A model generated the notes under the pieces. It was not told the DNA's origin. It worked only from the letters and a program-made list of their open reading frames with translations, and did not search any database. A stretch of DNA of 64,000 nt from Micromonospora sp. WMMD812 (GTDB taxonomy: Bacteria > Actinomycetota > Actinomycetes > Mycobacteriales > Micromonosporaceae), in assembly GCF_027497215.1 (NCBI RefSeq), contig NZ_CP114904.1:1860001-1924000 (forward strand), given 5' to 3'. The translations under genes and the position numbers were made by a program. This document shows positions 4,666-63,841 of the stretch, piece by piece. Position 1 is the stretch's first letter. Each line of letters opens with the position of its first letter.

Positions 4666-4785
4666 CGGTCGGCCTCGTCCGCGGTCGGACCTCGCACCGC
4701 CACACGCCTCCTTCGCCCCGGTGATCCCACAGGGGTGAACGAGTCACTGGCCGGTCACGGCCCGGGAGGTTGGCGACGTCCGTGC

Positions 4786-5286: not shown

Positions 5287-5352
5287 ACCTCGACTGTACG
5301 ACTCACACTGGGTGGCCGGCGGCGACGACCAGCGGGCGCGCGAGGCCGTGCC

Positions 5353-6909: not shown

Positions 6910-7018
6910 CGCCCGCTCCCCCGATCCGCTCGGCCGTCCCGACGCGTCGACTCTCACCAACCTGCCGGCGCCGGGGTTACTGCTCCAGCATGATCGCCGC
7001 CCGGTGGCGTGGGCGCGG

Positions 7019-42025: not shown

Positions 42026-42265
42026 CGTGCTCCTCCCCTTGTCCGGCACCGGACGCGGTCGCGCGTCCCGACAGGGACGGCGGGCCGCCGGTGCGGCGGT
42101 TGCCTCGCACCCTAGGAACCGGTGCGCGGCCGGTCATCGGACAGTTGCGGGAGGTGATCGCGATCGACTCCTACGTATGTCGCATGTGGCCGAGGGTGTC
42201 CCGCCGGACGGCATCCGCCGTCTCGCGGACGGTCGGGTGTCCGTCCTCGCGAATACGATCTCGGG

Positions 42266-43192: not shown

Positions 43193-45037
43193 TCAGGCCG
43201 GGCGAAGACGGGTGTGCCGGGCTTTGCGCCCCTCCTCATAACCGGCCCGGGCCGCCCGCGCCGCCGCGGTCGTGGAGACCTCGGCGACCGGCACGTCCCA
43301 CCAGGCGCCGCCGTCGGGGCCGGCCTCGAACCGGTCGGTCCGCACGTGCACAACGGTGGTCCGCGACGCCGCCCTCGCCGTCTCCAGCGCCGCGCGCAGC
43401 TCCGCCGTCGTCGACACCCGGATCAGGTCCGCGCCGAGGCTCGCCGCGTTGGCCCCCAGGTCGACCGGCAGCGGTGCCCCGGCGCGGTCCTCGTACGCGG
43501 TGCCGAGCCGCTGCGCGCCGACGCTCTCCGACAGCCGGCCGATCGAGGCGAACCCGTCGTTGTCGACCAGCACGACGACCAGCTTCACCCCGTCGGCCAC
43601 CGCGGTGGCGAGCTCGCTCGGCAGCATCAGGTACGACCCGTCACCGACCAGCACGAACACCTCGCGGTCCGGCGCGGCCAGCTTCACCCCGAGGCCGCCG
43701 GGGATCTCGTAGCCCATGCACGAGTAGCCGTACTCGACGTGGTAGCTCTTCGGGTCGGCGCTGCGCCACAGCCGGTGCAGGTCACCGGGCATCGACCCGG
43801 CCGCGCAGACCACCACGTCGCGCGGGCCGGCGGCGTCGTTGACCGCGCCGATCACCGCGGTCTGGGTGGGCCGCGCGTCCGGCGCCGCGTGCCGGGCCCG
43901 CTCGGCCACCACCGCCCAGCGTCCGATCAGGTCGGAAACCTCCGCACGGTACGCCGGCACGGTCGACCAGCCGGCACACGCGGCGTCGAGCGCGGCGAGG
44001 CCTTCCCGCGCGTCCGCGACGAGCGGCGTCCCGGACAGCTTCGCCCCGTCGAAGCCGCTGATGGTGAGGTTGACGAAGCGGGCACCCTCTCGGAAGAGGG
44101 TGCCGGACGCCGTGGTGAAGTCGCTGTAGCGGGTGCCCACCCCGATCACCACGTCCGCGCCGGCCGCGACCTCGTTCGCCGCGCTCGTGCCGGTAACCCC
44201 GACCGCGCCGAGCGCCAGCGGGTGGTCGTGCGGCAGCGCGCCGGTGCCGGCCTGGGTCTGCGCCACCGGCACCCCGTGCGTCTCGGCGAACCGGCGCAGC
44301 GCGTCGCCCGCGCCGCTGTAGATCACCCCGCCCCCGGCGACCAGCAGCGGCCGCCGCGCCGCGGTGACCACCCGGGCGGCCCGGTCCACGGCCGCCGAGT
44401 CCGGACGCGGGCGCGGCACGTGCCAGACCCGGTCGGCGAACAGCTCCGCCGGCCAGTCGTACGCCTCGGCCTGCACGTCCTGCGGAAGGGCGAGGGTGAC
44501 CGCGCCGGTCTCGACCGGGTCGGTCAGGACCCGCATGGCGGCCAGCAGCGCCGCCGGCAGTTGCTCCGGCCGGTTGATCCGGTCCCAGTACCGGGACACC
44601 GGCCGGAGCGCGTCGGTGACGCTCACGTCGTACGAGCGCGGGTCCTCCAGCTCCTGGAGCACCGGGTTGGCCACCCGGGTGGCGAAGATGTCACCGGGCA
44701 GCAGCAGCACCGGCAGCCGGTTGATGGTCGCCCCGGCCGCGCCGGTGACCAGGTTCGTCGCGCCGGGGCCGATCGAGGTGGTGCAGGCCAGCGTGCTCAT
44801 CCGGTCGGTCATCCGGGCGTACGCGGCGGCGGTGTGCACCATGCCCTGCTCGGTGCGGCACAGGTGGTACGGCAGGTCGACCTCGGCACTGGCCAGGGCC
44901 TCGCCGATCCCGGCGACGTTGCCGTGGCCGAAGATGCCGAAGCAGGCGGGGATCAGCCGGTGGCGCACCCCGTCGCGCTCGGACCACTGCCGGGCCAGGA
45001 ACGTCACCAGCGCCTGCGCCACCGTCAGCCGCGGCAT
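43193..45037 (-). CDS. iolD: 3D-(3,5/4)-trihydroxycyclohexane-1,2-dione hydrolase
   Basis: 614 aa TPP enzyme. ATG 45037 is preferred over the GTG three bases earlier because GGGAGG is better spaced; it overlaps the iolB stop by one base. The N-terminal PYR domain, central domain and C-terminal TPP motif GDGSYLMLPSELATAV with VDNDGFASIGRLSESVG are complete, and GFASIGxLSxSxG is specific to IolD. It opens the ring of the diketone made from inosose to give 5-deoxyglucuronate. Last gene of the leftward iolC-J-B-D operon. Confidence 0.94.
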   Translation of the reverse strand: MPRLTVAQALVTFLARQWSERDGVRHRLIPACFGIFGHGNVAGIGEALASAEVDLPYHLCRTEQGMVHTAAAYARMTDRMSTLACTTSIGPGATNLVTGAAGATINRLPVLLLPGDIFATRVANPVLQELEDPRSYDVSVTDALRPVSRYWDRINRPEQLPAALLAAMRVLTDPVETGAVTLALPQDVQAEAYDWPAELFADRVWHVPRPRPDSAAVDRAARVVTAARRPLLVAGGGVIYSGAGDALRRFAETHGVPVAQTQAGTGALPHDHPLALGAVGVTGTSAANEVAAGADVVIGVGTRYSDFTTASGTLFREGARFVNLTISGFDGAKLSGTPLVADAREGLAALDAACAGWSTVPAYRAEVSDLIGRWAVVAERARHAAPDARPTQTAVIGAVNDAAGPRDVVVCAAGSMPGDLHRLWRSADPKSYHVEYGYSCMGYEIPGGLGVKLAAPDREVFVLVGDGSYLMLPSELATAVADGVKLVVVLVDNDGFASIGRLSESVGAQRLGTAYEDRAGAPLPVDLGANAASLGADLIRVSTTAELRAALETARAASRTTVVHVRTDRFEAGPDGGAWWDVPVAEVSTTAAARAARAGYEEGRKARHTRLRPA

Positions 45038-45939
45038 CACGCCTCCCGGGTCGTCGGGCCGGTCAAGGGCAGCCGCGGGTCGACGACCTGGTCGACCCAG
45101 CTCGCCCGGATCCAGCCGTGCCGCGGATCGTCCACACAGGCCATGGTGCGGTTCCGCCCGGGCCCGGCCAGCACGTTGAGGTAGTAGAGGTGGTAGCCGG
45201 GCGCGGCCATCGACGGCCCGTGGTAGCCGTGCGGGACCAGCACCACGTCCCCGCCGCGCACCTCGGCGAGCACGTCGATGGGCCGCCGGTCGATGCCGTA
45301 GACCCGCTGGTAGCCGACCGGGCCGGTCTCGTCGCCGGGCGCGCCGCCGGCCACCTCGAAGTAGTAGATCTCCTCCAGCTCCGCCTCGACCCGCCCGTCG
45401 TCGTGGACCCGGTCCTCCTCGTGCTTGTGCGGCGGGTACGACGACCAGTTGCCGCCGGGGGTCAGCACCTCGACGGCGACGAGGCGGTCACAGTCGAAGG
45501 CGTCCGGGGCGCAGAAGTTGTTGACCTGGCGGCTGGCCGGTCCGGCGCCGCGCAGCTCGACCGGCACGTCCCGGGCGGCGCCGTAGCGGGGCGAGAGTCG
45601 GCGGGTCGCCCGGGCCGAGGGCAGGGCGAACCGTCCCTCCCCCTCGATCGTGGCGGTGGCGTCGCGGGGCAGGTAGGCGAAGTCGGTGACCGCGGCGAAC
45701 ACCGACGCCCGTCCGGTCAACGCGAGCGACAACCCGTCGCAGTGCACGGTCGCGGCGCCGGCCAGCGGCAGGACCAGCATCTCCTCCGCTGCGGTGTGGA
45801 CGGTGACGGTGCCGCCCGGCGGCAGGGTGAGCACCCGCAGGCCCGCGTACGTCCAGCCGGCCCGCTCCGGAGTGACCTCCAACGCCCAGGGCGCCCGGGC
45901 GGTGCTGCCCCACGCCAGGTGGGCGTCCGGCGTCCTCAC
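45037..45939 (-). CDS. iolB: 5-deoxy-glucuronate isomerase
   Basis: 300 aa bicupin. The metal motif YPPHKHEEDR, EEIYYFEV and HGYHGPSMAAPGYHLYYLN are characteristic of IolB. It converts 5-deoxyglucuronate to 2-deoxy-5-keto-gluconate. The GTG start overlaps the upstream stop (GTGA), so it is co-translated with the IolJ-like aldolase gene and with iolD. Confidence 0.95.
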   Translation of the reverse strand: MRTPDAHLAWGSTARAPWALEVTPERAGWTYAGLRVLTLPPGGTVTVHTAAEEMLVLPLAGAATVHCDGLSLALTGRASVFAAVTDFAYLPRDATATIEGEGRFALPSARATRRLSPRYGAARDVPVELRGAGPASRQVNNFCAPDAFDCDRLVAVEVLTPGGNWSSYPPHKHEEDRVHDDGRVEAELEEIYYFEVAGGAPGDETGPVGYQRVYGIDRRPIDVLAEVRGGDVVLVPHGYHGPSMAAPGYHLYYLNVLAGPGRNRTMACVDDPRHGWIRASWVDQVVDPRLPLTGPTTREA

Positions 45940-46823
45940 GCGTCCTGCCCGGTGGGGAGCAGCGAGCCGGCCACGTCGACGGCGGCGGCCACGTCGTCGT
46001 CCGGCGGGTAGAGCAGCGCCCGGCCGACCACCAGTCCGCGTACGCCGGGCAGCCGCAGCGCCCGCTGCCAGCGGGCGTACACCACGTCGGGGGCCTCGAC
46101 CGGGTCACCGCCGAGCAGCAGGACCGGCAGGGTGGTGGCCGCCATCACCCGCTCCATCTCGTCGATGGCCGGCAGCTTCAACCAGGTGTACGCGGAGGTC
46201 GCGCCGAGCGCCTGGCCGACGCTGACGCCCTTGATGACGGCCTCGGGACGCAGGTCGGCGTGCACCCGGCCGTCGGTGCGCGCCACCCACAGCGGCTCCA
46301 CCAGGGCGACCGTGCGGTGCGCGGCGAGGGAGGTGACCGCCCGGGCGCAGGCCTGCAGCGTCGGGGCGGTGCCCGGGTCGTCCGGGTCGATGCGGCAGAG
46401 CATCTTGCCGCCGTCGTAGCGCATGGCGGCGATGCTGTCGGCGTCGTACGCGGTGAACCGGTCGTCGAGTTCGAAGGTCGCCCCGGACAGCCCACCCCGG
46501 TTCATCGACCCGATCGCCAGCCGGTCCTCCAGCGCGCCGAGCAGCAGCAGGTCCTCCAGGACGTCGGGGGTGCCGAGCACCCCGTCGACGCCGGGCCGGG
46601 ACAGCGCCAGGCGCAGCCGGTCGAGCAGGTCGGCGCGCCCGGCCATGGCCATCGGCCGGTCCCGGACGCCGAGGGCGCCGCGGGCCGGATGGTCGGCGGC
46701 GATGATGAACAGGGGTCGCCCGTGGTCCGGCCAGGGCCGGCGGGTGCGGCCGGCGGCCGCCTCCGCGATCGCCTGTGGCCGGTGCGCGCGGGTGAGGGTC
46801 AGCGCGTCGTACTCGGTGCTCAC
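45936..46823 (-). CDS. Cgl0159-type (beta/alpha)8 aldolase, IolJ-equivalent
   Basis: 295 aa TIM barrel protein in the place where iolJ lies in other inositol operons. Landmarks are FIIAADHPARGALGV, the lysine in DAVIKGVSVGQALGATS-type context (VIKGVSVGQ) and TLPVLLLGGDPVEAPDVVY. Class I aldolase chemistry on 2-deoxy-5-keto-gluconate-6-phosphate, giving dihydroxyacetone phosphate and malonate semialdehyde, is inferred from context. The GTG start overlaps the iolC stop and follows GGGAGGAG. Confidence 0.88.
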   Translation of the reverse strand: MSTEYDALTLTRAHRPQAIAEAAAGRTRRPWPDHGRPLFIIAADHPARGALGVRDRPMAMAGRADLLDRLRLALSRPGVDGVLGTPDVLEDLLLLGALEDRLAIGSMNRGGLSGATFELDDRFTAYDADSIAAMRYDGGKMLCRIDPDDPGTAPTLQACARAVTSLAAHRTVALVEPLWVARTDGRVHADLRPEAVIKGVSVGQALGATSAYTWLKLPAIDEMERVMAATTLPVLLLGGDPVEAPDVVYARWQRALRLPGVRGLVVGRALLYPPDDDVAAAVDVAGSLLPTGQDA

Positions 46824-47800
46824 CGGTTTTCTCCTCCCGCGGCAGCGGTCGACGGTGGTTCCGGTTGGACGGCGCGGAGCAGCGCCAGGGTCTCGGCGTG
46901 GTCCGGCATGGCGGCCGAGCAGGCCAGGCGGGAGGCGACGATCGCGCCGGCGGCGTTGGCGAAGCGCAGCGTGCGCTCCAGCGGCCAGTCGCGCAGCAGC
47001 CCCAGGCAGAGCGCGCCGCCGAACGCGTCGCCGGCGCCGAGCCCGTTGACCACGTCGACCGGCACCGGCGGCACCCGGACGGTCTCGGTGGCGGTGCGGG
47101 CGAGCACCCCGTCCGGCCCGAGCTTCACCACCGCCAGCCGGGGCCCACGGTCGAGCAGCAGCCCGGCGGCCCGCTCGGGATCGCGGGTGCCGACGGCGAC
47201 CTCCACCTCGTCGAGGTTGCCGACGGTCACGGTGACCTGCGGCAGCACCTCGGCGATCGCCGCCGTCGCCTCGGCCGCGTCGGGCCAGAACATCGGCCGG
47301 TAGTCCAGGTCCAGCACGGTGTGCGGCCGCCCGGCGCGGACCTCAAGCGCGGCGGTGTGCGCGTTCCGGCTCGGCTGCTGGCACAGCCCGGTGCCGGTGA
47401 GCCAGAAGATCCGGGCGGCCGCGATCGCGTCGCCGTCCAGTTCCTCGGGCCGGATCTGCAGGTCCGGGGCGGTCGGGGTGCGGTAGAACCAGAGCGGGAA
47501 GTGGTCCGGCGGGAAGATCTCGCAGAAGGTGATCGGGGTGGGCAGCCCCTCGACCGGGCGGACCTGGCTGTCGTCGACGCCGAACTCGCGCAGCGCCCGG
47601 TGCACGTACGCGGCGAACGCATCGGCCCCGGTGCGGGTGATCACGCCGGAACGCAGTCCCTGCCGGCTGGCCGCGACGGCCACATTGGTCGGGCTCCCGC
47701 CGAGGAAGCGGCCGAACGTCTCGACGTCGGCCAGCGCGGTGCCGACCTGCAACGGATAGATGTCCACCCCGACCCGGCCGATGGTGAGCACATCCAGCAT
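46820..47800 (-). CDS. iolC: 5-dehydro-2-deoxygluconokinase
   Basis: 326 aa PfkB kinase. LDVLTIGRVGVDIYPLQVGT at the N-terminus is nearly invariant in IolC, GGSPTNVAVAASR is the sugar-binding segment and NGLGAGDAFGGALCLGLL holds the anion hole and catalytic Asp. It phosphorylates 2-deoxy-5-keto-gluconate. GAAGGAC precedes the ATG. First gene of the leftward operon, with a palindromic operator candidate 89-98 bases upstream. Confidence 0.95.
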   Translation of the reverse strand: MLDVLTIGRVGVDIYPLQVGTALADVETFGRFLGGSPTNVAVAASRQGLRSGVITRTGADAFAAYVHRALREFGVDDSQVRPVEGLPTPITFCEIFPPDHFPLWFYRTPTAPDLQIRPEELDGDAIAAARIFWLTGTGLCQQPSRNAHTAALEVRAGRPHTVLDLDYRPMFWPDAAEATAAIAEVLPQVTVTVGNLDEVEVAVGTRDPERAAGLLLDRGPRLAVVKLGPDGVLARTATETVRVPPVPVDVVNGLGAGDAFGGALCLGLLRDWPLERTLRFANAAGAIVASRLACSAAMPDHAETLALLRAVQPEPPSTAAAGGENR

Positions 47801-47888
47801 GCGACGTCCTTCGTCCCGGCCGGCGTGGACGTACCTGCCAGCGCTGTCCCTGATTGGTAACAGTGCCGCGTGAGTTGTGTCAATGTGT

Positions 47889-47898
47889 TGTCATGACA
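47889..47898. promoter_or_regulatory. palindromic operator TGTCATGACA, iolC/GntR promoter
   Basis: A perfect 10-bp palindrome between the divergent iolC and GntR-regulator genes. The same ten bases occur at 48776-48785 in front of the importer operon. Identical palindromes flanking a GntR-family gene are the expected signature of its operator. Confidence 0.7.
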
Positions 47899-47987
47899 TC
47901 TGCCCTCTGCGCTGGGTGACCACTTCGGTACAGTGGCGCCCATCGTCGCGCGCCCTGCGACTCCGCGCGTCCCCCCGAGGAGGTGCC

Positions 47988-48725
47988 GTGCCCGGCCCCG
48001 AGATCGCGGTCGACCGGAGCAGCCCGGTCCCGCTCTACTTCCAGGTCGCCGAGCAGTTCGCGGCGGCGATCCAGCGCGGCGAGCTGGCGCCGGGTGACCG
48101 GCTGGACAGCGAGTTGCAGCTCGCCGACCGGCTCGGGCTGTCCCGCCCGACCGTCCGGCAGGCCATCCAACACCTGGTCGACAAGGGGTTGATCATCCGC
48201 CGCCGCGGGGTGGGCACCCAGGTGGTGCGCGGCGAGGTCCGCCGGTCGGTGGAGCTGACCAGCCTCCACGACGACCTGCTGCGCGCCGGCCAGCGACCGT
48301 CCACCTCGGTGCTGGAACTGGCCACCGCACCCTGCCCGGCCGGCGTCGCCGACGCGCTCGGCGTGCCCGTGGGCAGCGAGGTCTGGCACCTGCGCCGGTT
48401 GCGCTTCTCCGACGGCGACCCGCTCGCGGTGATGGAGAACTGGCTCCCGGCCGACCTGGTCCGGCTCAGCCTCGACGCCCTGCAGGCGAACGGCCTGTAC
48501 GCGATCCTGCGCGCCAGCGGCATGCGGATCCGCGGCGCGCACCAGCGGATCGGGGCGCGGGCCGCGAGCACGGTGGAGGCCCAGATGCTCGGCGAGCGGC
48601 GAGGCGCGCCGCTGCTCACCCTGACCCGCACCGCGTACGACGACCGGGGGCGCTACGTCGAGCACGGCGCGCACATCTACCGGGGCAGCCGCTACTCGCT
48701 GGAGGTCACGGTCGCGGAGCGGTGA
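47988..48725 (+). CDS. GntR-family (HutC subfamily) regulator of the inositol locus
   Basis: 245 aa from GTG 47988 with GAGGAGG upstream; the longer open frame from 47877 runs through the promoter and is rejected. The winged HTH covers residues ~17-80 (YFQVAEQFAAAIQRGELAPG ... LSRPTVRQAIQHLVDKGLI). A UTRA ligand domain follows (~100-240), ending RYSLEVTVAE. HutC-type proteins usually repress until a pathway metabolite binds. Twin TGTCATGACA sites place it over both arms of the locus. Confidence 0.92.
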   Translation: MPGPEIAVDRSSPVPLYFQVAEQFAAAIQRGELAPGDRLDSELQLADRLGLSRPTVRQAIQHLVDKGLIIRRRGVGTQVVRGEVRRSVELTSLHDDLLRAGQRPSTSVLELATAPCPAGVADALGVPVGSEVWHLRRLRFSDGDPLAVMENWLPADLVRLSLDALQANGLYAILRASGMRIRGAHQRIGARAASTVEAQMLGERRGAPLLTLTRTAYDDRGRYVEHGAHIYRGSRYSLEVTVAER

Positions 48726-48775
48726 CGGTGGATGTTTCGCGCTCATTTCAGTGACAGGTATTTACGTCGTCAGGC

Positions 48776-48785
48776 TGTCATGACA
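48776..48785. promoter_or_regulatory. palindromic operator TGTCATGACA, importer operon promoter
   Basis: Second perfect copy of the palindrome, 93-103 bases upstream of the binding-protein start at 48879. GTGACAGGTATTTACG just upstream contains a related half-site (TGACA). Nothing coding is seen in 48726-48878. Confidence 0.7.
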
Positions 48786-48878
48786 TTGTGGCCGCTAGCA
48801 CCGCCGGGCGAGTGACCTGCGGCCGGCGGGCGACCCGCGAGTCTCTTCGAAGTCTCTCCTTGCGAAGGGAAACAGCCC

Positions 48879-50276
48879 ATGTCAGCCAAGCCGAGACACG
48901 CAGCGGGCGTGCTCGCCGCGTTCACCGCCGTCGCCCTCGCCGCCACGGCGTGCGGTGACTCGTCCGAGCCCGCCGGCAAGGACGCCAAGAACATCACCCT
49001 CACCATCGCCGCCAACTCGATCGTCGGCGGCAAGAGCTCCGCCGGCGCGGAGTGGATCGAAAAGTGGGTCATCCCCCGGTTCGTCGAGGCCCAGAAGGCC
49101 AAGGGTGTCACCGCCAAGGTGACGTTCGTGCCCAGCGGCGTCGACGACGAGCAGTACAAGACCAAGCAGGCCCTCGACCTGCGGTCCAAGAGCGGCGCCG
49201 ACGTCATCGCGCTGGACGGCATCTGGGTCGGCGAGTTCGTCCAGGCCGGCTACCTCAAGCCGCTGTCCGACGTGGCCGGCTCCGAGGTGGACTCCTGGGA
49301 GGGCTGGTCGCAGATCCCGGAGACCGTGCAGGGCCTCGGCTCGTTCGAGAACAAGCGGTACGGCATCCCGCTCGGCACCGACGGCCGGGTCCTCTACTAC
49401 AACAAGAAGCTGTTCGCCCAGGCCGGCCTGCCCGCCGACTGGCAGCCGAAGAGCTGGCAGGAGATCCTCGACGCCGGCGCCAAGCTCAAGGCGCTGCCCG
49501 GGGTGACCCCGATCCAGATCAACGCCGGCACGGCGATGGGCGAGGCCACCTCGATGCAGGGCGCGTTGCCGCTGCTGGTCGGCGCCGGCGGCGAGATCTA
49601 CAAGGACGGCAAGTGGGCCGGGGCCAGCCAGCCGGTCAAGGACGTGCTCGACTTCTACACGAAGATCTACGGCGGCGGCCTGGGCGACCCGAAGCTCCAG
49701 CAGGAGGCGAAGGGCCGGGACAAGTCGTTCGCCGAGTTCGCCGCCGGCAAGATCGGCATTCTCGGCGAGGGCGACTACTTCTGGCGCAGCGTCGTCAACC
49801 CCGGCAGCGGCATCGCCAAGATGGCCGACCGGGACACCACCGTCGGCTACGCCATGATCCCCGCCAAGCAGCCGGGCGCCGGCATCCGCGGGCAGGACTT
49901 CGTGAGCATGTCCGGCGGCGGCGTACGGGTGCTCAACCCCAACTCCAAGTTCCCCGCCCAGGCGTGGGAACTGCTGTCGTTCATGCACTCCGCCGAGGCG
50001 GTCAAGGCCGAACTCGCCGGTGAGAAGCGGATCACCGCGCGGACGGACGTCAACAAGGAGGTCCTCGCGGGCGACCCGATGCTGAGCTTCATCACCGAGA
50101 AGGTGCTGCCGGTCACCGCGTACCGGCCGCCGCTCGCGGTCTACCCGCAGGTGTCCGTCGCGCTCCAGGAGGCCACCGCGGACGCGGCCGGCGGAAAGAG
50201 CGTCGACGAGGCGGCCAGCGCGTACCAGAAGAAGGTCGAAGGGATCGTCGGTGGCGCAGGCAACGTCACCTCCTGA
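48879..50276 (+). CDS. ABC transporter extracellular substrate-binding lipoprotein
   Basis: 465 aa. Sec signal with lipobox (VALAATAC, Cys about residue 25), then a cluster B binding protein of the CUT1 group. GIPLGTDGRVLYYNKKLFAQ and SFMHSAEAVKAELAG are family landmarks. GAAGGGAAACAGCCC precedes the ATG. It feeds the permease pair encoded next; substrate inferred from locus content to be an inositol glycan or glycerophosphodiester, not shown by sequence. Confidence 0.92.
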   Translation: MSAKPRHAAGVLAAFTAVALAATACGDSSEPAGKDAKNITLTIAANSIVGGKSSAGAEWIEKWVIPRFVEAQKAKGVTAKVTFVPSGVDDEQYKTKQALDLRSKSGADVIALDGIWVGEFVQAGYLKPLSDVAGSEVDSWEGWSQIPETVQGLGSFENKRYGIPLGTDGRVLYYNKKLFAQAGLPADWQPKSWQEILDAGAKLKALPGVTPIQINAGTAMGEATSMQGALPLLVGAGGEIYKDGKWAGASQPVKDVLDFYTKIYGGGLGDPKLQQEAKGRDKSFAEFAAGKIGILGEGDYFWRSVVNPGSGIAKMADRDTTVGYAMIPAKQPGAGIRGQDFVSMSGGGVRVLNPNSKFPAQAWELLSFMHSAEAVKAELAGEKRITARTDVNKEVLAGDPMLSFITEKVLPVTAYRPPLAVYPQVSVALQEATADAAGGKSVDEAASAYQKKVEGIVGGAGNVTS

Positions 50277-51198
50277 CCAGGTGGTGAAGGGAGCGCGCCC
50301 GGCGACGGGCGCCTCCCCCGCCCCCGACGCCGCCGGGCTCGGCCGGGCCCGGGCCACCGGGTTCGTCGTGCCCGGCATGGTGCTGATCCTGCTCTTCCTC
50401 GTGGTCCCGGCCGTCTGGACGATCTACCTCGGCGTCACCAACTACCGGCTGACCGGCCTGGCCGCCGCCAACCCGGAAATCGTCGGGCTGGACAACTACA
50501 CCCAGGCGCTGGGCGACGAGCGGTTCCGCAACTCCCTGCTGCTGACCCTCCAGTTCGTGCTCGGCTCGGCGGTCATCGGCCAGGCCGGGCTGGGCTTCGC
50601 CATCGCGTACGCGCTACGCGACCGCCGGGGTCCGCTGCGCCGGCTGGTCGAGGGGCTGGTCCTGCTCTCCTGGATCCTGCCCAGCTCGGTGGTGGCGTTC
50701 CTCTGGATCGCCCTGCTCGACCGGGACGGCGGCACGCTCAACACGCTGCTCGGCATCCCCGGCACCGCCTGGCTGCTCGACCACCCGATGCTGTCGATCA
50801 TCATCTTCAACACCTGGCGCGGCACCGCGTTCTCGATGATGCTCTACGCCGCCGCCCTGGAGAACGTGCCCCGCTCGCACCTGGAGACCGCCCGGCTCGC
50901 CGGCGCGTCCACCTGGCAGCAGCTCCGCGACGTGGTCTTCCCCCGCATCCGTGGGCACGTGCTCACCAACCTGCTGCTGATCAGCCTCTGGACGTTCAAC
51001 GACTTCGCGCCGTTCCTCATCACCGCGGGCGGTCCCGAGCAGCGCTCGGAGATCCTGCCGGTCTACGTCTACAAGGTCGCGCTCTCCGGCGGCGAACTCG
51101 GCTTCGGCGCGGCCATCTCGTTCGTCATGCTGCTGATCAACCTGGTCATCGCCCTGGTCTACCTGCGGATGCTGGGCCGGCGGAAGGAGACGGCATGA
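50251..51198 (+). CDS. ABC sugar transporter permease (MalF/UgpA type)
   Basis: 315 aa from GTG 50251, overlapping the binding-protein gene by 26 bases. Six membrane segments follow a ~30-residue hydrophilic start. The EAA loop appears as ENVPRSHLETARLAGASTWQQLRDVVFPRIRG. It pairs with the permease that begins at 51195 (ATGA overlap). Confidence 0.92.
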   Translation: MAQATSPPDQVVKGARPATGASPAPDAAGLGRARATGFVVPGMVLILLFLVVPAVWTIYLGVTNYRLTGLAAANPEIVGLDNYTQALGDERFRNSLLLTLQFVLGSAVIGQAGLGFAIAYALRDRRGPLRRLVEGLVLLSWILPSSVVAFLWIALLDRDGGTLNTLLGIPGTAWLLDHPMLSIIIFNTWRGTAFSMMLYAAALENVPRSHLETARLAGASTWQQLRDVVFPRIRGHVLTNLLLISLWTFNDFAPFLITAGGPEQRSEILPVYVYKVALSGGELGFGAAISFVMLLINLVIALVYLRMLGRRKETA

Positions 51199-52076
51199 CG
51201 GCGACCGCCACCGCACCGCCGGCCCGGACCGAGCCGGCGGCCGACGGTCCGCGCATCGCGGTCCGGCACGTGCTCGCCGGGATCGCGCGGTACGTCTTCC
51301 TCTGCGCCGTCCTCGGGTTCTTCGCCCTGCCGCTGCTCTGGCTGGCCACCGCCCCGTTCGACGACACCCCGACGATCACCGCGTCGCTGCCGCAGTTCAC
51401 CCTGGACAACTTCCGGGCCCTGCTCGACAACCCGTACGCGCTCAGCTCACTGCTCAACTCGGTCTACCTGGCCGTCGGCACCGCCGCGCTGGTGGTGACG
51501 TTCGCGGCGCTGGCCGCGTACGCGCTCAGCCGGGTCCGGGTGCCGGGCCGCGACGCGCTGCTCTACGGGCTGCTGCTGCTCTCCTCGATCGTCACCGGCA
51601 CCGCCACCATGGTGCCGCTGTTCGAGCTGGCCGACCGGCTGCACCTGATCGACTCCCGGCTCGGCGTCATCCTGATCCTCAGCGGCGGCCTGCTGCCCGC
51701 GGCGATCTTCATCCTGAAGGACTTCATGGACGCCACCCCGACGTCCTACGAGGAGTCCGCCCGGGTCTTCGGCGCCAGCCCGCTGCAGATCATGCGGCAC
51801 ATCGTGGTGCCGCTGGTGCGTCCCGGGCTGGCGACCGTCGGGGTGTGGGCGGTGGCCAACGTCTGGGGCAACTTCCTGGTGCCGTACCTGCTGCTGCGCG
51901 GGCCGGACAAGGCCCCCGCCGCGGTGATCATGTACACCCTCTACACCGAGGGCGGCCAGGCCGACCTGCGGCTGCTCTCCACGTTCTCACTGCTCTACTC
52001 GCTGCCGGTGGCGCTCATGTTCGTCTTCGTCAGCAGCCGGTACGGATTCCGCTTCCACGGAGGGATCAAGCGCTGA
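51195..52076 (+). CDS. ABC sugar transporter permease (MalG/UgpE type)
   Basis: 293 aa, six membrane segments, EAA loop TSYEESARVFGASPLQIMRHIV. Its start overlaps the previous stop, and its own stop overlaps the ATPase start by one base (TGATG at 52074-52078). This gives a strict subunit order of binding protein, MalF, MalG and ATPase. Confidence 0.92.
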   Translation: MTATATAPPARTEPAADGPRIAVRHVLAGIARYVFLCAVLGFFALPLLWLATAPFDDTPTITASLPQFTLDNFRALLDNPYALSSLLNSVYLAVGTAALVVTFAALAAYALSRVRVPGRDALLYGLLLLSSIVTGTATMVPLFELADRLHLIDSRLGVILILSGGLLPAAIFILKDFMDATPTSYEESARVFGASPLQIMRHIVVPLVRPGLATVGVWAVANVWGNFLVPYLLLRGPDKAPAAVIMYTLYTEGGQADLRLLSTFSLLYSLPVALMFVFVSSRYGFRFHGGIKR

Positions 52077-53254
52077 TGTCCGCCATCGCCATGCGCGCGC
52101 TGACCAAGGTCTACCCCAACGGGGTACGCGCCCTGGACGCCCTCGACCTGGAGATCGCCGACGGCGAGTTCTTCGCCCTGCTCGGCCCGTCCGGCTGCGG
52201 CAAGACCACCCTGCTGCGCACCATCGCCGGGCTGGAACTCGCCTCCGGCGGCAGCGTGCACATCGGTGACCGCGAGGTCACCAACCTGCCGCCCGGAAAA
52301 CGGGACGTGGCGATGGTCTTCCAGGACTACGCCCTCTACCCGCACATGACCGTGCGGGACAACATCGCCTACCCGTTGCGGATCAAGAAGGTGGACCGGC
52401 GCAGCCGCGGCGAGAAGGCCGCCGAGACCGCCGACGAGCTGGGCCTGTCCGCGCTGCTGGACCGCCGCCCCGGCCAGCTCTCCGGCGGCCAGCAGCAGCG
52501 CGTCGCGCTCGCCCGCGCGATGGCCTGTCACCCGCAGGTCTTCCTCCTCGACGAGCCGCTGTCCAACCTGGACGCCCGGCTCCGGCTGGAGGCCCGGACG
52601 TTCCTCAAGCGGCTGCAGCGCGAACTCGGCGTGACCACCGTCTTCGTCACCCACGACCAGGCCGAGGCCCTCGCCCTGGCCGACCGGATCGCCGTCATGG
52701 AGGGCGGCCGGATCCGCCAGGTCGGCACGCCCACCGAGGTGTTCCGCCGCCCGGCGAACACGTTCGTCGCCGGGTTCATCGGCTCCACCCCGATGAACCT
52801 CATCGACGCCGAGGCCCGCGACGGCGAGCTGGCCGTCGCCGGCGCCCGGCTGCCGGCGCCGGAGGGCGTCCCGCTCACCGACGGCGAGAAGCTGGTCTAC
52901 GGAGTACGCCCCGAGTACCTCGACTACTCGGCCGAACCGGTCCCGGGCGCCCTGCACGGGCAGGTCGTCGTGGTGGAGAACCTGGGCAGCTTCTCGCTGG
53001 TCTCGCTCGACCTGACCACCGGCGGGCCGACCGACGGCGCGCCGGGCGGATCAGCCGACGACCCACATGTCGACACCCGCGCCTCCGGCGCCAGCGTCCA
53101 GGTCGTCGTGCCCGAGGGCCGAGAACCGGAGCCGGGTGACACCGGCTGGGTGGTGCCCCGGCCGGGCCGGTCACTGCTCTACCGGGACGGGGAGCTGCTC
53201 GCCACCGCGCCGGCGCCGGTCGTCCCCGCCGCCCGGACCGGCGCGGAGCGCTGA
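52076..53254 (+). CDS. ABC transporter ATP-binding subunit (UgpC/MsmK type)
   Basis: 392 aa. Walker [14 protein letters not shown]-loop [15 protein letters not shown], signature [15 protein letters not shown], Walker [17 protein letters not shown] and switch His [13 protein letters not shown] are all intact. The C-terminal ~150 residues form the OB-fold/MOD domain of sugar importers. It carries an unusual Gly/Asp-rich insert near residues 320-345 ([20 protein letters not shown]). It could also energise the ATPase-less importer at 17690-20789. Confidence 0.94.
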
Positions 53255-53256
53255 CC

Positions 53257-54465
53257 ATGGCGGTGCACCGGGGCCGATGGACCCTCCCCGACCGCGCCGA
53301 CAGCGTCCTGCGCGCCCTGCCGGTCACCGTGCCGCCCGGCACCGCCGCCCTCACCGTACGGCTGGCGTACCCCCGGACGGCCGGGGTGCTCGACCTCGGC
53401 TGCGTCGGGCCGGACGGCTTCCGCGGCTGGTCCGGCGGCGCCCGCGACGAGTACACCGTCTCCGCCGACTGGGCCACCCCCGGCTACCTGCCCGGCGAGC
53501 TGGAACCCGGCGAGTGGCAGGTGCTGCTCCGGCTGCACCGCATCCCACCCGACGGGCTCGACTACGAGGTCACCGCCACCACCGCCACCACCGTCCCGCC
53601 GGCACCGGCCGAACCGGCGGCCCCGCCCCGCCCCGACCGTCCGCCCCGCCGGGCACTGCCCGAGGTGGACGGCCGCCGCTGGATCGCCGGTGACCTGCAC
53701 GCGCACACGGTGCACAGCGACGGCAGCGGCACCATCGACGAGCTGGCCGCCCTCGCCGCCGGTCGCGGCCTGGACTTCCTCGCCGTCACCGACCACAACA
53801 CGGTCAGCCACCACCCCTGGCTGCCCGCCGCCTCGACCCGGTACGGCATCACGCTGATCCCCGGGCAGGAGGTGACCACCGACCGGGGCCACGCCAACGT
53901 GTTCGGCCCGGTCGGCTGGGTCGACTTCCGCCGGCCGCCGGACGAGTGGCTCGCCGCCGCCGAGCGCGACGGGGGGCTGATGTCGGTCAACCACCCGCTC
54001 GGCGGCGACTGCGCCTGGCGGCAGCCGCTCACCACCCGCACCCGGCTCGCCGAGGTCTGGCACTCCGGCTGGTGGGACCGCACCTGGGGCGCCCCCCTCG
54101 CCTGGGCGCAGGCGTGGCGGCCGGACGTCGTACCGGTCGGGGGCAGCGACTACCACCGCCCCGGCGCCGACGCCCTGCCCGGCTCCCCCACCACCTGGCT
54201 GCTGGTCGACGACGACCGGCCGGCGCAGACCGCGGTGCTCGACGCGCTGCGCGCCGGCCGTACCGCCATCTCGGCCGACCCCGACGGGCCGCTGCTGCTC
54301 CGCCTCGGCGACGAACTGCTGGCGCTCGACGCGGACGGCGCGCTGCTGGGCTACCCCGACGGCCGCCACCGCGTCGTCCACGGCGACCGGTGCCGGCTCC
54401 CCGCCGGCGACGGCCTGCACGTCCTGGAGTCCCACCGCATGGAGGTGATCGCACTGTGCAGCTGA
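53257..54465 (+). CDS. PHP-domain metallohydrolase (CehA/McbA family), probable phosphoesterase
   Basis: 402 aa. Residues 1-135 form a beta-sandwich-like N-terminal region. The PHP domain follows, with metal motifs GDLHAHTVHSDG, AVTDHNTVSHH, PGQEVTTDRGHANVF, SVNHPLGGD and VGGSDYH. PHP enzymes of this branch cleave phosphoesters or related bonds with two or three metals. No signal peptide, so it acts in the cytosol on the imported compound. It begins 2 bp after the ATPase stop. Carbaryl-type ester hydrolysis, as in CehA, is an alternative. Confidence 0.85.
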   Translation: MAVHRGRWTLPDRADSVLRALPVTVPPGTAALTVRLAYPRTAGVLDLGCVGPDGFRGWSGGARDEYTVSADWATPGYLPGELEPGEWQVLLRLHRIPPDGLDYEVTATTATTVPPAPAEPAAPPRPDRPPRRALPEVDGRRWIAGDLHAHTVHSDGSGTIDELAALAAGRGLDFLAVTDHNTVSHHPWLPAASTRYGITLIPGQEVTTDRGHANVFGPVGWVDFRRPPDEWLAAAERDGGLMSVNHPLGGDCAWRQPLTTRTRLAEVWHSGWWDRTWGAPLAWAQAWRPDVVPVGGSDYHRPGADALPGSPTTWLLVDDDRPAQTAVLDALRAGRTAISADPDGPLLLRLGDELLALDADGALLGYPDGRHRVVHGDRCRLPAGDGLHVLESHRMEVIALCS

Positions 54466-55367
54466 CTGGACGAACCCGGGTGGCCGGCGCGCCCGTGAAC
54501 CACGGCATCTACCAGCCGGACGACACCGAACTGGGCCCCGACGACCTGCTCACGGCCCTGGCCCGGGACGGCTACGACGGGATCGACTCCGGGCCGATCG
54601 GCTACCTCGGCACCGGAGACACCCTGGTCCACCGGCTGACCGGCGCCGGCATCGGTCTCGCCGGCGGCTGGGTCGACCTGCGCTACGGCGATCCGGACGG
54701 CTTCGCCGCGGACCTCGCCCAACTCGACGCGGCGCTCGACGTCTTCACCGCCCTCCCGGCGGACGACCCGCGCTTCGCGCCCCGCCCCACCCTCGCCTGC
54801 CCCGGGAACCCGGCCCGGATGGACCGGCCCGGCATCCCCACCGACCTCGGCGCGGCGCTGCCGGCCGCCGACTGGCCCGACTTCGCCGCCCGCGTGCAGC
54901 AGGCCGCCGACCGCTGCCGGGACCGCGGCCTGGAGCCGGTGTTCCACTACCACCTCGGCACCGACGTGGAGACCGAGGCCGAGGCCGACCGGCTGCTGGA
55001 ACTCACCGACATCGCGGTCTGCCTGGACACCGGGCACCTGCTGCTCGCCGGCGGCGACCCGGTCGCGGCGGTACGCCGGTGGGCCGGCCGGATCGGCCAG
55101 GTGCACCTCAAGGACGCCGACCTGGCCGTCCACGAACGGGTCCGGGCGGCCGGCGGCGGCCTCACCGAAGTCGTGGCCGCCGGCGGGTTCTGCCCGCTCG
55201 GCACCGGCGACGTCGACTTCGCCGGGGTGTTCGCCGGCCTCGACGCGATCGGCTACACCGGCTGGCTGATCATCGAACAGGACGCGCCGGCGCGGGGGCG
55301 GGATCTCGACCGCACCCGCGCCGACCAGACCGCCAACCGGCGCTGGCTCCAGGAGGCGCTGCGATGA
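54456..55367 (+). CDS. IolE-like sugar isomerase/inosose dehydratase (xylose isomerase-like TIM barrel)
   Basis: 303 aa from GTG 54456, with GGAGGTGATC upstream and a 10-base overlap with the preceding gene. FHYHLGTDVETEAEADRLLE, VCLDTGHLLLAGGDP, QVHLKDADLAVHERV, FCPLGTGDVDFAGV and GWLIIEQD closely match the C-terminal two thirds of IolE inosose dehydratases, including the metal-binding Glu, Asp, His and Glu positions. An inosose dehydratase or a related epimerase is likely, which would bridge to IolD of the divergent operon. Confidence 0.85.
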   Translation: MQLTGRTRVAGAPVNHGIYQPDDTELGPDDLLTALARDGYDGIDSGPIGYLGTGDTLVHRLTGAGIGLAGGWVDLRYGDPDGFAADLAQLDAALDVFTALPADDPRFAPRPTLACPGNPARMDRPGIPTDLGAALPAADWPDFAARVQQAADRCRDRGLEPVFHYHLGTDVETEAEADRLLELTDIAVCLDTGHLLLAGGDPVAAVRRWAGRIGQVHLKDADLAVHERVRAAGGGLTEVVAAGGFCPLGTGDVDFAGVFAGLDAIGYTGWLIIEQDAPARGRDLDRTRADQTANRRWLQEALR

Positions 55368-56512
55368 CCGAGCCGGGCAAGCGGATCCGCATCGCGGTGG
55401 CCGGGCTCGGCATCATCGCCCGTACGGTGCACCTGCCGCTGCTGCAACGCCGCGGCGACCTGTTCGACGTCGTCGCCCTCGGCGACCTCTCCCCCACCCG
55501 GGTCGCCGACCTCGGCCGCCGGTACGGCGTCGAACCGGGCCGCCGGTACACCGACGCCGCCGCCATGGTGGCCGACGGCGGGTACGACGCCGTCCTGCTC
55601 GCCACCTCCGGCTCCCACGGCGACCTCGCCGCGCAGGCCCTGCGCGCCGGCGTGCCGGTGCTCTCCGAGAAGCCACTCGCCTACACCCTCGCCGAGACGG
55701 ACCGGCTCACCGACCTCGCCGGCGGAAGCCCGGCGCTGATGGTCGGCTACATGAAGCAGTACGACCCGGCGGTCGCCGAGGCCGCCCGGCTGCTCGACGA
55801 ACTCGGCGGCCCGGAACGGGTGCACGCGGTGGAGGTGACCGTGCTGCACGCCGGCGGCGACCGGCAACTGGCGTTCGCCAACCTGCCGCCGGCCCCCGGC
55901 GACGTGCCGTCCGCCGAGGCGGCCCGGCTGCGCGCCGCCGACAACGCGCTGCTGGACGCGGCGGTGGGTGGCGACCCGGGCGCCCGCACGCTCTACCAGA
56001 TCCTGATCAACAGCGTCTGCCACGACCTGAGCCTGCTGCGACTGTTCACCGGCGCGCCGTCGACCGTGGACCACGTGGCGACCTGGCCGGTGGCACCGGA
56101 GCTGCCGGCCGAGCCGTCGGTGGAGGTCAGCGGCCGGCTGCCGGGCGGCGCCCGGTACGGCATCCGCTGGCTCAACCTGCCCGACTACCCGGCCTACCGG
56201 GAGACGGTGACCCTGCACCACGCCCGCGGCTCGCTGGACCTGGTCTTCCCGTCGCCGTACCTGCTCAACGCGCCCACCACCCTGACCGTGGTGGACACGC
56301 ACGGCGGCGGCGAGCGGCGGGCCGTGTTCCGGTCGGTCACCGAGGCGTTCGAGCAGGAACTGGTCGCCTTCCACGCGATGGTCACCGCCGGGACGGCGCC
56401 GTTGACCGGGATCGCCGAGGGCGCGGCCGACATTCGGACCAGTCAACAGGTGGTACGCCGCCACGGCGAACTGACCGGCGCGGCGATCGGCGGAGAGGCG
56501 GCGGGCCGATGA
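55364..56512 (+). CDS. Gfo/Idh/MocA-family dehydrogenase, possible inositol dehydrogenase
   Basis: 382 aa, ATG 55364 overlapping the previous stop (ATGA). The Rossmann segment IRIAVAGLGIIARTVHLPLL, the substrate-orienting EKP motif in VLSEKPLAYTLAE and the C-terminal beta-sheet domain are typical. Family members oxidise inositols or sugars with NAD, or mediate redox steps in glycoside cleavage. Next to an IolE-like gene, an IolG-like role (inositol to inosose) is the simplest inference. It overlaps the mannosidase start by 4 bp. Confidence 0.86.
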   Translation: MTEPGKRIRIAVAGLGIIARTVHLPLLQRRGDLFDVVALGDLSPTRVADLGRRYGVEPGRRYTDAAAMVADGGYDAVLLATSGSHGDLAAQALRAGVPVLSEKPLAYTLAETDRLTDLAGGSPALMVGYMKQYDPAVAEAARLLDELGGPERVHAVEVTVLHAGGDRQLAFANLPPAPGDVPSAEAARLRAADNALLDAAVGGDPGARTLYQILINSVCHDLSLLRLFTGAPSTVDHVATWPVAPELPAEPSVEVSGRLPGGARYGIRWLNLPDYPAYRETVTLHHARGSLDLVFPSPYLLNAPTTLTVVDTHGGGERRAVFRSVTEAFEQELVAFHAMVTAGTAPLTGIAEGAADIRTSQQVVRRHGELTGAAIGGEAAGR

Positions 56513-59253
56513 CACGACCGACCGAGATCATCGTGGTGCCACACACCCACTGGGACCGCGAGTGGTACGAGCCGTTCCAGCGGTTCCGGTTGCGGCTGGT
56601 GGCCCTGCTCGACGACGTGTTCGAGCGGATGGCACGCGACGAGCGGCAGCGGTTCACCCTGGACGGGCAGCTCGCCGCGGTCGACGACTACCTGGAGGTC
56701 CGCCCCGAACGGCGGGAACAGGTGATCGCCCTGGTCCGAGCCGGGCGGCTCGCCGTCGGCCCGTGGCAGATCCTGCTCGACGAGTTCCTCTGCTCGGGCG
56801 AGAACATCGTCCGCAACCTGGAACGCGGCCTCACCCGCAGCGCCGACCTGGGCGGCCCCATGCCGGTCGGCTACCTCCCCGACATGTTCGGTCACATCGC
56901 ACAGATGCCGCAGATCCTCACCGGGGCCGGGCTGGCGCACGCCTGCGTGTTCCGCGGCGTCCCGGACCGGGTCCGCACGCACGCGTTCGCCTGGCAGGCC
57001 CCCGACGGCACCACCGTCCGCACCGAGTACCTGCCCGGCGGGTACGGCAACGCGGCCGGTCTGATGGACGACGCCGCGCTGGTCACCCGCCGCGCCGCCG
57101 ACCTCGCCGACCGGCTCACCGCGTGGCGCCCCGAGGACAGCACGTCCCCGATCCTCGCCATGTACGGCACCGACCACGCCGCGCCGGCGCCGAACGCCCC
57201 CGACCTGCTCGCCGCGGCGGACGTCGACGGCGTACGGCTGCGCCTCGGCACCCTCGCCGAGTACTTCGCCACCCAGCCGACCACGGTCGACGGGCTGCCC
57301 ACCGTCGCCGGCGAGCTGCGCTCGCACGTGCGGGCCAACATCCTGCCCGGCGTCATCTCCGTCCGCGCCCACCTCAAGCAGGCGATGGGCCTGGCGGAAC
57401 GGCGGGTCGAACGGTACGCCGAGCCGCTCGCCGCGCTCTTCCACGACCCGTCCGTGCAGCGTTTCCTGGACATGGCGTGGACCCGGCTGATCGACGCCAG
57501 CTGCCACGACTCTGTGACCGGCTGCGGCTGCGACGAGACCGCCGAGCAGGTGGCCGCCCGCCTCGCCGAGGCCGACCAGCTCGGCCGGGCGGTCTGCGAC
57601 CTGGTCGGCGCCCGGCTGTCCGCCGCCGTGCCCCGCGACGGCTATCTGCTGTTCAACCCCAGCCCGGTCCCCCGCACCGCCCTGGTCCGCCTCGACGTGG
57701 CGGCGCCCGGCGACACGGTGGCGCTGGCCGGGGCGGACGGCCAGCCCCTGCCGGCGCAGGTTCTCGACCGCGCCCGGACGCTGCTCGCCGACGAGGTGGT
57801 GCCGGCCGCCGACCTGCCGGCGGTGCTCACCCGCGTGCACGGCCGGGAACTCTACGGCCAGGAGGTCACCCGCTGGTCGGTGTCGCCGGCCGACGCCACC
57901 CTCACCTTCGAGGTGGCCCGGCACGGCGACCCCGCCTTCGACGTGGAGGACGTCCGCCTGGCGCTCGCCGACGCCGCCCAGCCGGACCGCTGGCGGGTCC
58001 GCATCCTGGCCGCGCCCCGCGCCACCGTCGCCGCGTTGGTCGACGTCCCCGCGCTCGGCCACGCCGCGGTGCGTCCGTCGTCCGCCACCGCCGGGCAGCC
58101 CACCGGGGCGGCCGCGGTGGTGGACGACCGGAGCCTGGACAACGGCCTGCTCCGGGTCGACGTGGCCGAGGACGGCACGCTGCGGCTGTCCACCCCGGAC
58201 GGGATCGCCGTGGACGGCGTCGGGCGGATCGTCGACGGCGGCGACGTGGGCGACAGCTACAACTACGCCCCGCCGGCCGCGGACGAGCTGGTCGACAAGC
58301 CGCGGGCGGTCCGCGTCGTGCCGCGCCACCGCGGCCCGCTGGTCGCCGTGGTCGACGTGGTCCGCGAGTACCGCTGGCCGGTGGCGGCCGACGTCGACGC
58401 GGGATCCCGGGCGGTGGACCGGGAGGCGATCGTGGTGACGACGCGGGTCGAGCTGCGCGCCGGCGAGCGGTTCGTCCGGCTGCGGGTGGAGTTCGACAAC
58501 CGCTGCGACGACCACCGGGTGCGGCTGCATCTGCCGCTGCCCGCGCCGGCCTCCGCGTCGTACGCCGAGGGCCAGTTCGCGGTCGTGGAGCGCGGGTTGA
58601 CCGCCGAGGGCGGGGGCGGCGAGGTGCCGCTGCCCACGTTCCCGGCGTCCGGGTTCGTCGCCGCCGGCGCGGCGGCGGGCTCGCTCGCGGTGCTGCTCAC
58701 CCAGCCCACCGAGTACGAGCTGACCGACGGCGGGCGGGAGCTGGCCGTCACCGTGCTGCGGTCGATCGGCATGCTGTCGCGCAACCGGCACGCGCTGCGC
58801 GACGAACCCGCCGGCCCGCAGCTGCCCACCCCGTTGGCGCAGTGCCGCGGTGAGCGCAGCGTCGAGCTGGCGGTGCTGCCGTTCCGTGGCGAGTGGCACG
58901 CCGGGGGTGTGGCCGAGGCTGCCGAGAGCTACCGGCACGAGCTGCTGGCGTTCCCCGGCACGGCGGACCCGTCGGTCGCCCTGCCGGCGCCGGTCACCGG
59001 GCTGACGGTGGCCGGGTCGGGGGTGGCGCTGACCAGCGTCCGGGACCGGGACGGCCGCACGGAGGTGCGGATGGTGGCCGAGACGCCGGACACCACCACC
59101 GCCGTGCTCGGGGCGGGCCGGCCGGTACGCGGGGCGCGCCGGGCGGACCTGCTGGGCCGGCCGGGCGAGCGGCTGGACGTCGACGCCGACGGGCTGCTCC
59201 GGCTGCCGCTGCGCTCCTGGGAGATCGCCACGGTGCAGCTCGACCTGGCCTGA
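56509..59253 (+). CDS. GH38 alpha-mannosidase
   Basis: 914 aa, cytosolic (no signal). Zinc-site motif VVPHTHWDREWY at residues 9-20, nucleophile Asp125 in GYLPDMFGH, and SCHDSVTGCGCDE for the later zinc His/Asp region. The C-terminal half is the beta-rich GH38 domain with VRLRVEFDNRCDDHRVRLHL. It should cleave alpha-mannosyl residues from an imported glycoside. ATG 56509 overlaps the preceding stop (ATGA), so it is the last gene of the rightward inositol-locus operon. Confidence 0.93.
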   Translation: MTRPTEIIVVPHTHWDREWYEPFQRFRLRLVALLDDVFERMARDERQRFTLDGQLAAVDDYLEVRPERREQVIALVRAGRLAVGPWQILLDEFLCSGENIVRNLERGLTRSADLGGPMPVGYLPDMFGHIAQMPQILTGAGLAHACVFRGVPDRVRTHAFAWQAPDGTTVRTEYLPGGYGNAAGLMDDAALVTRRAADLADRLTAWRPEDSTSPILAMYGTDHAAPAPNAPDLLAAADVDGVRLRLGTLAEYFATQPTTVDGLPTVAGELRSHVRANILPGVISVRAHLKQAMGLAERRVERYAEPLAALFHDPSVQRFLDMAWTRLIDASCHDSVTGCGCDETAEQVAARLAEADQLGRAVCDLVGARLSAAVPRDGYLLFNPSPVPRTALVRLDVAAPGDTVALAGADGQPLPAQVLDRARTLLADEVVPAADLPAVLTRVHGRELYGQEVTRWSVSPADATLTFEVARHGDPAFDVEDVRLALADAAQPDRWRVRILAAPRATVAALVDVPALGHAAVRPSSATAGQPTGAAAVVDDRSLDNGLLRVDVAEDGTLRLSTPDGIAVDGVGRIVDGGDVGDSYNYAPPAADELVDKPRAVRVVPRHRGPLVAVVDVVREYRWPVAADVDAGSRAVDREAIVVTTRVELRAGERFVRLRVEFDNRCDDHRVRLHLPLPAPASASYAEGQFAVVERGLTAEGGGGEVPLPTFPASGFVAAGAAAGSLAVLLTQPTEYELTDGGRELAVTVLRSIGMLSRNRHALRDEPAGPQLPTPLAQCRGERSVELAVLPFRGEWHAGGVAEAAESYRHELLAFPGTADPSVALPAPVTGLTVAGSGVALTSVRDRDGRTEVRMVAETPDTTTAVLGAGRPVRGARRADLLGRPGERLDVDADGLLRLPLRSWEIATVQLDLA

Positions 59254-63743: not shown

Positions 63744-63822
63744 CGTCAAGCCCACACGCACTTCGCAATTCCCCCGATTCCACAGGTTCCTGACCTCGGT
63801 CAGCGATTCTGCGGCACGACCC

Positions 63823-63841
63823 GGGTCTTGCGGCAAGCCCC
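63823..63841. promoter_or_regulatory. rifamycin-associated element (RAE)-like inverted repeat upstream of helR
   Basis: GGGTCTTGCGGCAAGCCCC: two 9-base arms (63823-63831 and 63833-63841) with one mismatch around a central G. The known RAE is a 19-bp inverted repeat with a CTTGC/GCAAG core found before rifamycin-response genes, including helR. It sits 80 bases upstream of the helR ATG. The TATACC on the minus strand at 63849-63854 could be part of the promoter. No gene is seen from 63860 to the window end. Confidence 0.8.

Follow-up and report, generated by a model that had tools for sequence, protein, structure and literature searches.

An inositol-catabolism operon and an importer–PHP–GH38 operon of Micromonospora under a shared operator: conservation, and a hypothetical role in the breakdown of mannosylated inositol phospholipids

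Why should an operon of inositol catabolism stand back to back with one encoding an ABC importer, a PHP metallohydrolase and a GH38 alpha-mannosidase? Such an arrangement occupies positions 43193..59253 of the window analysed here (a stretch of 64,000 nucleotides from Micromonospora sp. WMMD812, whose genome is a single contig of 7.13 Mb). Along the window, the leftward operon reads iolD, iolB, a Cgl0159-like aldolase gene and iolC, and the divergent rightward one reads the genes of a GntR/UTRA regulator, a substrate-binding protein (SBP), two permeases, an ATPase, the PHP protein, an IolE-type TIM barrel, a Gfo/Idh/MocA dehydrogenase (Gfo/Idh) and GH38. The initial annotation saw in them one possible system for scavenging phosphatidylinositol mannosides (PIM). 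We find that the locus is real, co-regulated and conserved and that its links to inositol and mannose hold, while PIM enters our interpretation as a hypothetical substrate.

An operator common to two divergent promoters

The word TGTCATGACA matches the sequence once in each of the divergent promoter regions, at 47889..47898 between iolC and the GntR gene and at 48776..48785 in the promoter region of the importer, and the genome contains just one further copy. In 80 related loci (the best 80 of 280 relatives found; 1.62 Mb of sequence) there are 73 exact copies against 0.2 expected from base composition. Every one of them falls in the 400 bases that precede either an SBP gene or an iolC gene; 44 of 67 SBP genes and 37 of 41 iolC genes are so preceded. 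In 40 of the 73 cases TTTACG begins exactly 16 bases ahead of the word; if TTTACG is the -35 box, the operator would cover the spacer and the -10 region. Because the operator is common to both promoters, the sequence supports the view that both halves constitute one co-regulated system, and the joint system supposed at the outset is thereby strengthened. The presumed repressor is the GntR/UTRA regulator (47988..48725, forward strand; PF00392 and PF07702), whose start codon was picked by eye, the longest frame beginning at 47877.

The TGTCATGACA palindrome was also tried as a finder of a wider regulon and was rejected. The third copy in the genome of WMMD812 (L003) and the extra copies in four other genomes (G163, G201, G202, G203) show no iol gene in the roughly 2 kb around them, so that a wider regulon was not revealed. 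N. jabiensis (G204, 13.2 Mb) carries eight copies, two of them at this locus.

Conserved ties to inositol catabolism and alpha-mannosidase

The inositol genes themselves are clear. iolD (43193..45040, reverse strand), encoding 3D-(3,5/4)-trihydroxycyclohexane-1,2-dione hydrolase, scores 878 bits with TIGR04377 (cut-off 715) and is the sole match in its own genome at E<=1e-100; iolB (45037..45939, reverse), for 5-deoxy-glucuronate isomerase, scores 292 bits with TIGR04378 (cut-off 205), and iolC (46820..47800, reverse), for 5-dehydro-2-deoxygluconokinase, 370 bits with TIGR04382 (cut-off 300). The gene between the last two (45936..46823, reverse) had been called iolJ-like; this name has to be replaced, since the product is a Cgl0159-like aldolase (PF22649, 409 bits, cut-off 27) with no NCBIfam match at 1e-5, and its place in the pathway is suggested by gene position. 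The rest of the gene content first described is borne out by matches of the PHP, GH38 and importer domains, and the block indeed opens with iolD at 43193 and closes with GH38 at 59253.

Among the 80 related loci, iolD lies within 10 kb of the PHP gene in 43; of the remaining 37 genomes, 34 have it elsewhere (33 above the cut-off), which brings the total to 77 of 80. The tie extends to an even draw of 394 Actinomycetes genomes (PHP called at E<=1e-80, iolD at E<=1e-100), where iolD occurs in 41 of the 42 genomes with PHP and in 121 of the 352 without it (one-sided Fisher 1.4e-16, with no tree correction). The co-occurrence counts are uncorrected for phylogeny except in the genus-level table, where the figures are 17/17 against 44/120. 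Within Micromonospora they are 5/5 against 1/18. In the order-level sample, with PHP defined by at least 51% identity, iolD is found in 11/12 genomes against 58/188; weaker relatives, at about 39-48% identity in 13 of 25 genomes, were treated as a separate subfamily and not counted, and with them included the count is 19/25. Where both positions are listed, PHP lies within 40 kb of iolD in 21 of 40 genomes; of the 42, G426 drops out for lack of iolD and G430 because the listing gives no position for its iolD. The locus survey and the genome surveys overlap, since at least three of the 80 loci belong to the same genomes as G084, G098 and G163. A genome survey of the kind proposed in the initial annotation yields co-occurrence of PHP and iolD beyond chance, and the pattern named there as contrary, PHP and GH38 occurring as a rule without inositol genes, did not appear.

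The gene order varies between lineages. The iol and importer operons are divergent in Micromonospora and Nonomuraea, while in Streptomyces hoynatensis (L125) the iol genes lie downstream. In three loci (L087, L116, L123), in which the importer was not found, PHP adjoins iolC; in several f34 genomes the TIM barrel, Gfo/Idh and GH38 genes stand between iolD and PHP, and f51 has one compact cluster. Repeated rearrangement with proximity kept argues for function. It also tells against the idea that an iol operon merely touches a mannoside operon unrelated to it, a view which could appeal to Actinomadura, where the importer–PHP–GH38 unit, where seen, has no adjacent iol genes. With differing arrangements arising repeatedly, co-occurrence even of unlinked genes, and a common operator which the 80 loci carry at these promoters alone, we find such an accident hardly credible. 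Further conserved neighbours, judged by eye among the families listed, are shadow frames or lineage flanks, the latter including pabBC, sthA-like and ROK-kinase-like genes in Actinomadura and agmatinase-like genes in Nonomuraea. Two Streptomyces loci (L084, L136) have an importer–PHP unit without a nearby GH38, in genomes without iolD; these units either have a different function or are decaying.

A link to alpha-mannosidase, as first proposed, is supported too. GH38 (56509..59253, forward) matches PF01074 at 117 bits (cut-off 25), and its motifs HTHWDREWY, YLPDMFGH and SCHDSVTGC align with the Streptococcus pyogenes GH38 structure 2wyh; the middle domain PF09261 stays below its cut-off (20.1 against 31.1 bits), although the alignment to 2wyh still covers that part. 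A GH38 gene lies near PHP in 78 of the 80 loci, and 34 of the 394 genomes have a GH38 orthologue (a 35th, G028, with 225 bits over partial length, was dropped), 30 of which also have PHP. In L039, L041 and L246 another kind of GH38 stands beside the importer–PHP unit, and L040 has one by tblastn at 25%. In L041 (G157, 4360-7452), from a genome of the same family that lacks iolD, the unit adjoins a GH38 of 1031 amino acids with all four GH38 Pfam domains and may serve another mannoside. Two very small actinobacterial genomes, those of L244 (1.8 Mb) and L245 (1.4 Mb), both with a GC content of 0.47, have kept the importer and PHP without GH38.

From the enzymes to a possible substrate

What, then, could the rightward operon contribute to inositol catabolism? 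The PHP protein (53257..54465, forward) matches NF038032, the CehA/McbA type, at 137.5 bits (cut-off 80) and the PHP domain PF02811 at 32 bits (cut-off 26.4), and eight residues, which we take to be the metal ligands, are invariant in 38 sequences. In the predicted model (pLDDT, the predicted local distance difference test score, of 87.6) the structures closest to the PHP domain are 3e38, 2anu and 3e0f, whose titles all name a predicted or putative phosphoesterase; an N-terminal beta-sandwich resembles domains found in subtilases, collagenases and p24/GOLD proteins. A common fold does not establish function; PHP is a candidate phosphoesterase, presumably one that cleaves an inositol phosphoester or phosphodiester. 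Alternatively, PHP may cut an ester, carbamate or similar bond in a non-phosphorylated inositol glycoside, given that NF038032 is named for CehA/McbA, enzymes with carbamate-hydrolase activity. We regard this as unlikely, because the closest solved folds either bear titles of PHP phosphoesterases or are nucleases and the importer ATPase is nearest to UgpC, both being indirect indications. The family is large, with at least 4864 relatives at E<=1e-30 from part of the candidates scored, and the 120 members listed bear generic names or none. Micromonospora inositola (P0027), whose name points to inositol, carries the PHP protein.

The TIM barrel (54495..55367, forward; AP_endonuc_2; start codon chosen by eye) is the presumed 2-keto-myo-inositol dehydratase. 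The label IolE-like given to it is partly right: sequence, fold and a quick, midpoint-rooted tree with several long branches place it with IolE, as what appears to be a distinct clade, and its 140 bits fall short of the iolE cut-off of 290. This cut-off is reached in none of the 52 genomes searched (0/30 and 0/22), and the clade usually seems to replace canonical IolE. The Gfo/Idh protein (55364..56512, forward; PF01408), the presumed inositol dehydrogenase, was likewise correctly assigned to its family and is not a canonical IolG. No IolG above the cut-off was found in the 18 genomes searched, so the iolG model may be strict for this group. A Gfo/Idh protein together with an AP_endonuc_2 TIM barrel also belongs to 3-keto-glycoside routes, and the initial annotation had allowed for one acting on another mannoside. 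In such a route this pair would open a mannoside by oxidation and elimination, and the inositol genes would be incidental. The keto-glycoside hydratase 8ro4 ranks third among the PDB sequence matches of the TIM barrel; however, IolE matches rank above the keto-glycoside lyase and hydratase enzymes both by sequence and by fold, and for this reason we consider such a route very improbable. A second, unlinked set lies elsewhere in the WMMD812 genome (L206, 7012000-7026000). It combines a TIM barrel weakly resembling IolE with Gfo/Idh-like proteins and one ABC permease, possibly for another cyclitol or keto-sugar route.

The importer comprises the SBP (48879..50276, forward; SBP_bac_1, 108 bits), judged by eye to be a lipoprotein (lipobox LAATAC), permease 1 (50251..51198, forward; PF00528), permease 2 (51195..52076, forward; PF00528) and the ATPase (52076..53254, forward; PF00005; counts of ATPase genes in the 80 loci include some non-orthologous ones). 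The remote PDB matches of the SBP include UspB and UgpB, while the UgpB model gives 27 bits against a cut-off of 411; permease 1 reaches 86 bits with the UgpA model (cut-off 335), and the best model of the ATPase is UgpC with 388 bits, below the cut-off of 432. The nearness of the ATPase to UgpC weakly favours a phosphorylated cargo. No signal peptide was seen by eye in GH38 or PHP, and the conjugate is thus presumably imported intact after lipid cleavage outside the cell.

On balance we hold it probable, by a modest measure, that the locus is one regulon for the uptake and catabolism of an alpha-mannosylated inositol phospho-conjugate, whatever its source. The GntR/UTRA protein, binding TGTCATGACA where it overlaps the importer promoter, would repress both operons until an intermediate binds the repressor. 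The lipoprotein and the ABC importer would take up an intact conjugate such as a glycerophospho-inositol mannoside or a mannosyl-inositol phosphate; in the cytoplasm PHP would strip the phosphate or phosphodiester and GH38 the alpha-mannose. Gfo/Idh would oxidise the freed myo-inositol and the IolE-type TIM barrel would dehydrate the ketone, after which IolD, IolB, IolC and the Cgl0159-type aldolase would open and split the ring. More tentatively, and with somewhat more doubt than belief, we suggest a widespread actinobacterial pathway for the head groups of mannosylated inositol phospholipids, be they PIM or fungal mannosyl-inositol-phosphoceramides (MIPC). The PHP phosphodiesterase in it would be new and specific for inositol, the GH38 would be specific for mannosyl-inositols, and a second IolG/IolE pair, of non-canonical type, would act beside them under one dedicated repressor.

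Several observations weigh against a single regulon for such a conjugate. Exact copies of the operator are missing in the loci of Actinomadura, Streptomyces and Sphaerisporangium, and the regulator there is presumably different; many of these loci, among those listed, retain a TTTACG-like word. Nor does TGTCATGACA occur at the distal iol cluster of G163, which has a GntR gene of its own. The importer–PHP unit occurs without an iolD match in G157 and G426, in two Streptomyces genomes (G209, G228) and in a draft of Plantactinospora alkalitolerans (G207). CehA, the namesake of the PHP family, is a carbaryl hydrolase. Gfo/Idh, at 57 bits, stays far below the cut-off of the iolG model (355), and two genomes of the same genus that have neither PHP nor iolD (G047, G056) surpass the PHP-bearing ones in iolG-like matches. 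In addition, G144 and G322 carry an iolD-linked IolE-like protein besides the TIM barrel of the operon, and L253 and L254 retain Gfo/Idh without the TIM barrel, patterns which suggest that both proteins may have another job. Four genomes have GH38 without PHP (G253, G387, G435, G444), 12 of the 42 PHP genomes have no GH38 orthologue, and in the 1.8-Mb genome of L244 the importer, PHP and Gfo/Idh genes face the iol operon across the GntR gene with no GH38. It follows from such GH38-free genomes that the substrate does not always include mannose; most simply read, inositol and a PHP-sensitive bond form the common core, to which alpha-mannose is a frequent addition.

Where would this conjugate come from? 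Likely sources are the head groups of actinobacterial PIM or of fungal MIPC, between which the sequence does not discriminate. Co-regulation and the ties to inositol and to alpha-mannosidase stand from the interpretation first offered; PIM as the substrate stays hypothetical. Phospholipids of inositol and mannose are among the main lipids in the envelopes of many actinobacteria. In mycobacteria they are main envelope lipids (PMC8035080, PMC3229680), and the former article, a review of 2021, speaks of little information on their remodelling or recycling.

One narrower version of the conjugate-uptake regulon would have soil actinomycetes feed on fungi, the same machinery acting on the head groups of MIPC and M(IP)2C. 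These lipids hold mannose, inositol and phosphate and belong to a lipid series said to make up 5-10% of fungal membrane phospholipids (PMC12942302), and the gene content fits them equally well; on the other side, no secreted sphingolipid-cleaving enzyme was seen by eye among the neighbour families listed. We rate this restriction to fungi as rather improbable. Another narrower version, the recycling of the cell's own PIM head groups shed in envelope turnover, seems quite unlikely to us. PIM2 would be a suitable substrate, since its inositol bears alpha-mannose at both O-2 and O-6 as well as a glycerophosphodiester (PMC3229680), and the scarcity of information on recycling of PIM, lipomannan (LM) and lipoarabinomannan (LAM) noted in the same 2021 review (PMC8035080) leaves room for it; but PHP is patchy in the genus (5 of 23 Micromonospora genomes sampled), and the products enter full carbon catabolism rather than reuse. 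Solutes of the di-myo-inositol-phosphate type were considered as a source as well and were dropped, with nothing specific in the literature among the matches listed.

Neighbouring genes and comparison with known systems

Just past GH38 lies a gene for an EF-G-like protein (59420-61423, reverse), nearest to the Otr(A)-type tetracycline ribosomal-protection model (703 bits, cut-off 900), and beside it one for a HelR-type RNA polymerase recycling ATPase (61569-63836, reverse; 1288 bits, cut-off 750). Near the far end of the iol operon an X-Pro dipeptidyl-peptidase (S15) family protein is encoded (40112-42049, reverse). No Rfam family reaches its gathering score in the 64-kb window.

We found no description of such a locus in the open-access literature, among the titles and abstract beginnings of the matches listed, most subscription papers not being covered. 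A mycobacterial hydrolase, LamH, reportedly releases capsular arabinomannan (a preprint of 2023). The locus supplies a candidate gene for every step of head-group breakdown, together with a testable operator and inducer, and for a large PHP family of generic or missing names it provides a protein to assay. Should the substrate be fungal, the locus would identify a trophic link from fungi to soil actinomycetes.

The nearest parallel is offered by the bacterial iol clusters, which likewise join iolD, iolB, iolC and an aldolase gene in one operon and provide candidates for oxidation, dehydration and ring opening. In contrast to these clusters, of which PMC9430895 is a large survey, a second operon here, shared with the importer, PHP and GH38, holds a divergent TIM barrel and Gfo/Idh that seem to do the work of IolE and IolG; in the main text of that survey the strings "mannosi", "php" and "abc transporter" do not occur. 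With mannosylglycerate hydrolase (PRK09819 type) and other bacterial GH38 enzymes our protein shares the N-terminal domain and the motifs, while differing in its score with the mannosylglycerate hydrolase model (354 bits against a cut-off of 1138). The CehA/McbA metallohydrolases are alike in that their model is exceeded and their name is borne by many of the 120 relatives listed; the beta-sandwich in the predicted model and the neighbouring importer, GH38 and inositol genes set our PHP protein apart. In Escherichia coli, glycerophosphodiesters are taken up by UgpBAEC-UgpQ. Our locus resembles that system in its ABC importer, with an ATPase nearest to UgpC, and in a neighbouring gene that would encode a phosphodiesterase; it differs in that the UgpA, UgpB and UgpC models stay below their cut-offs, that PHP would stand in the place of UgpQ, and that the whole is tied to inositol genes.
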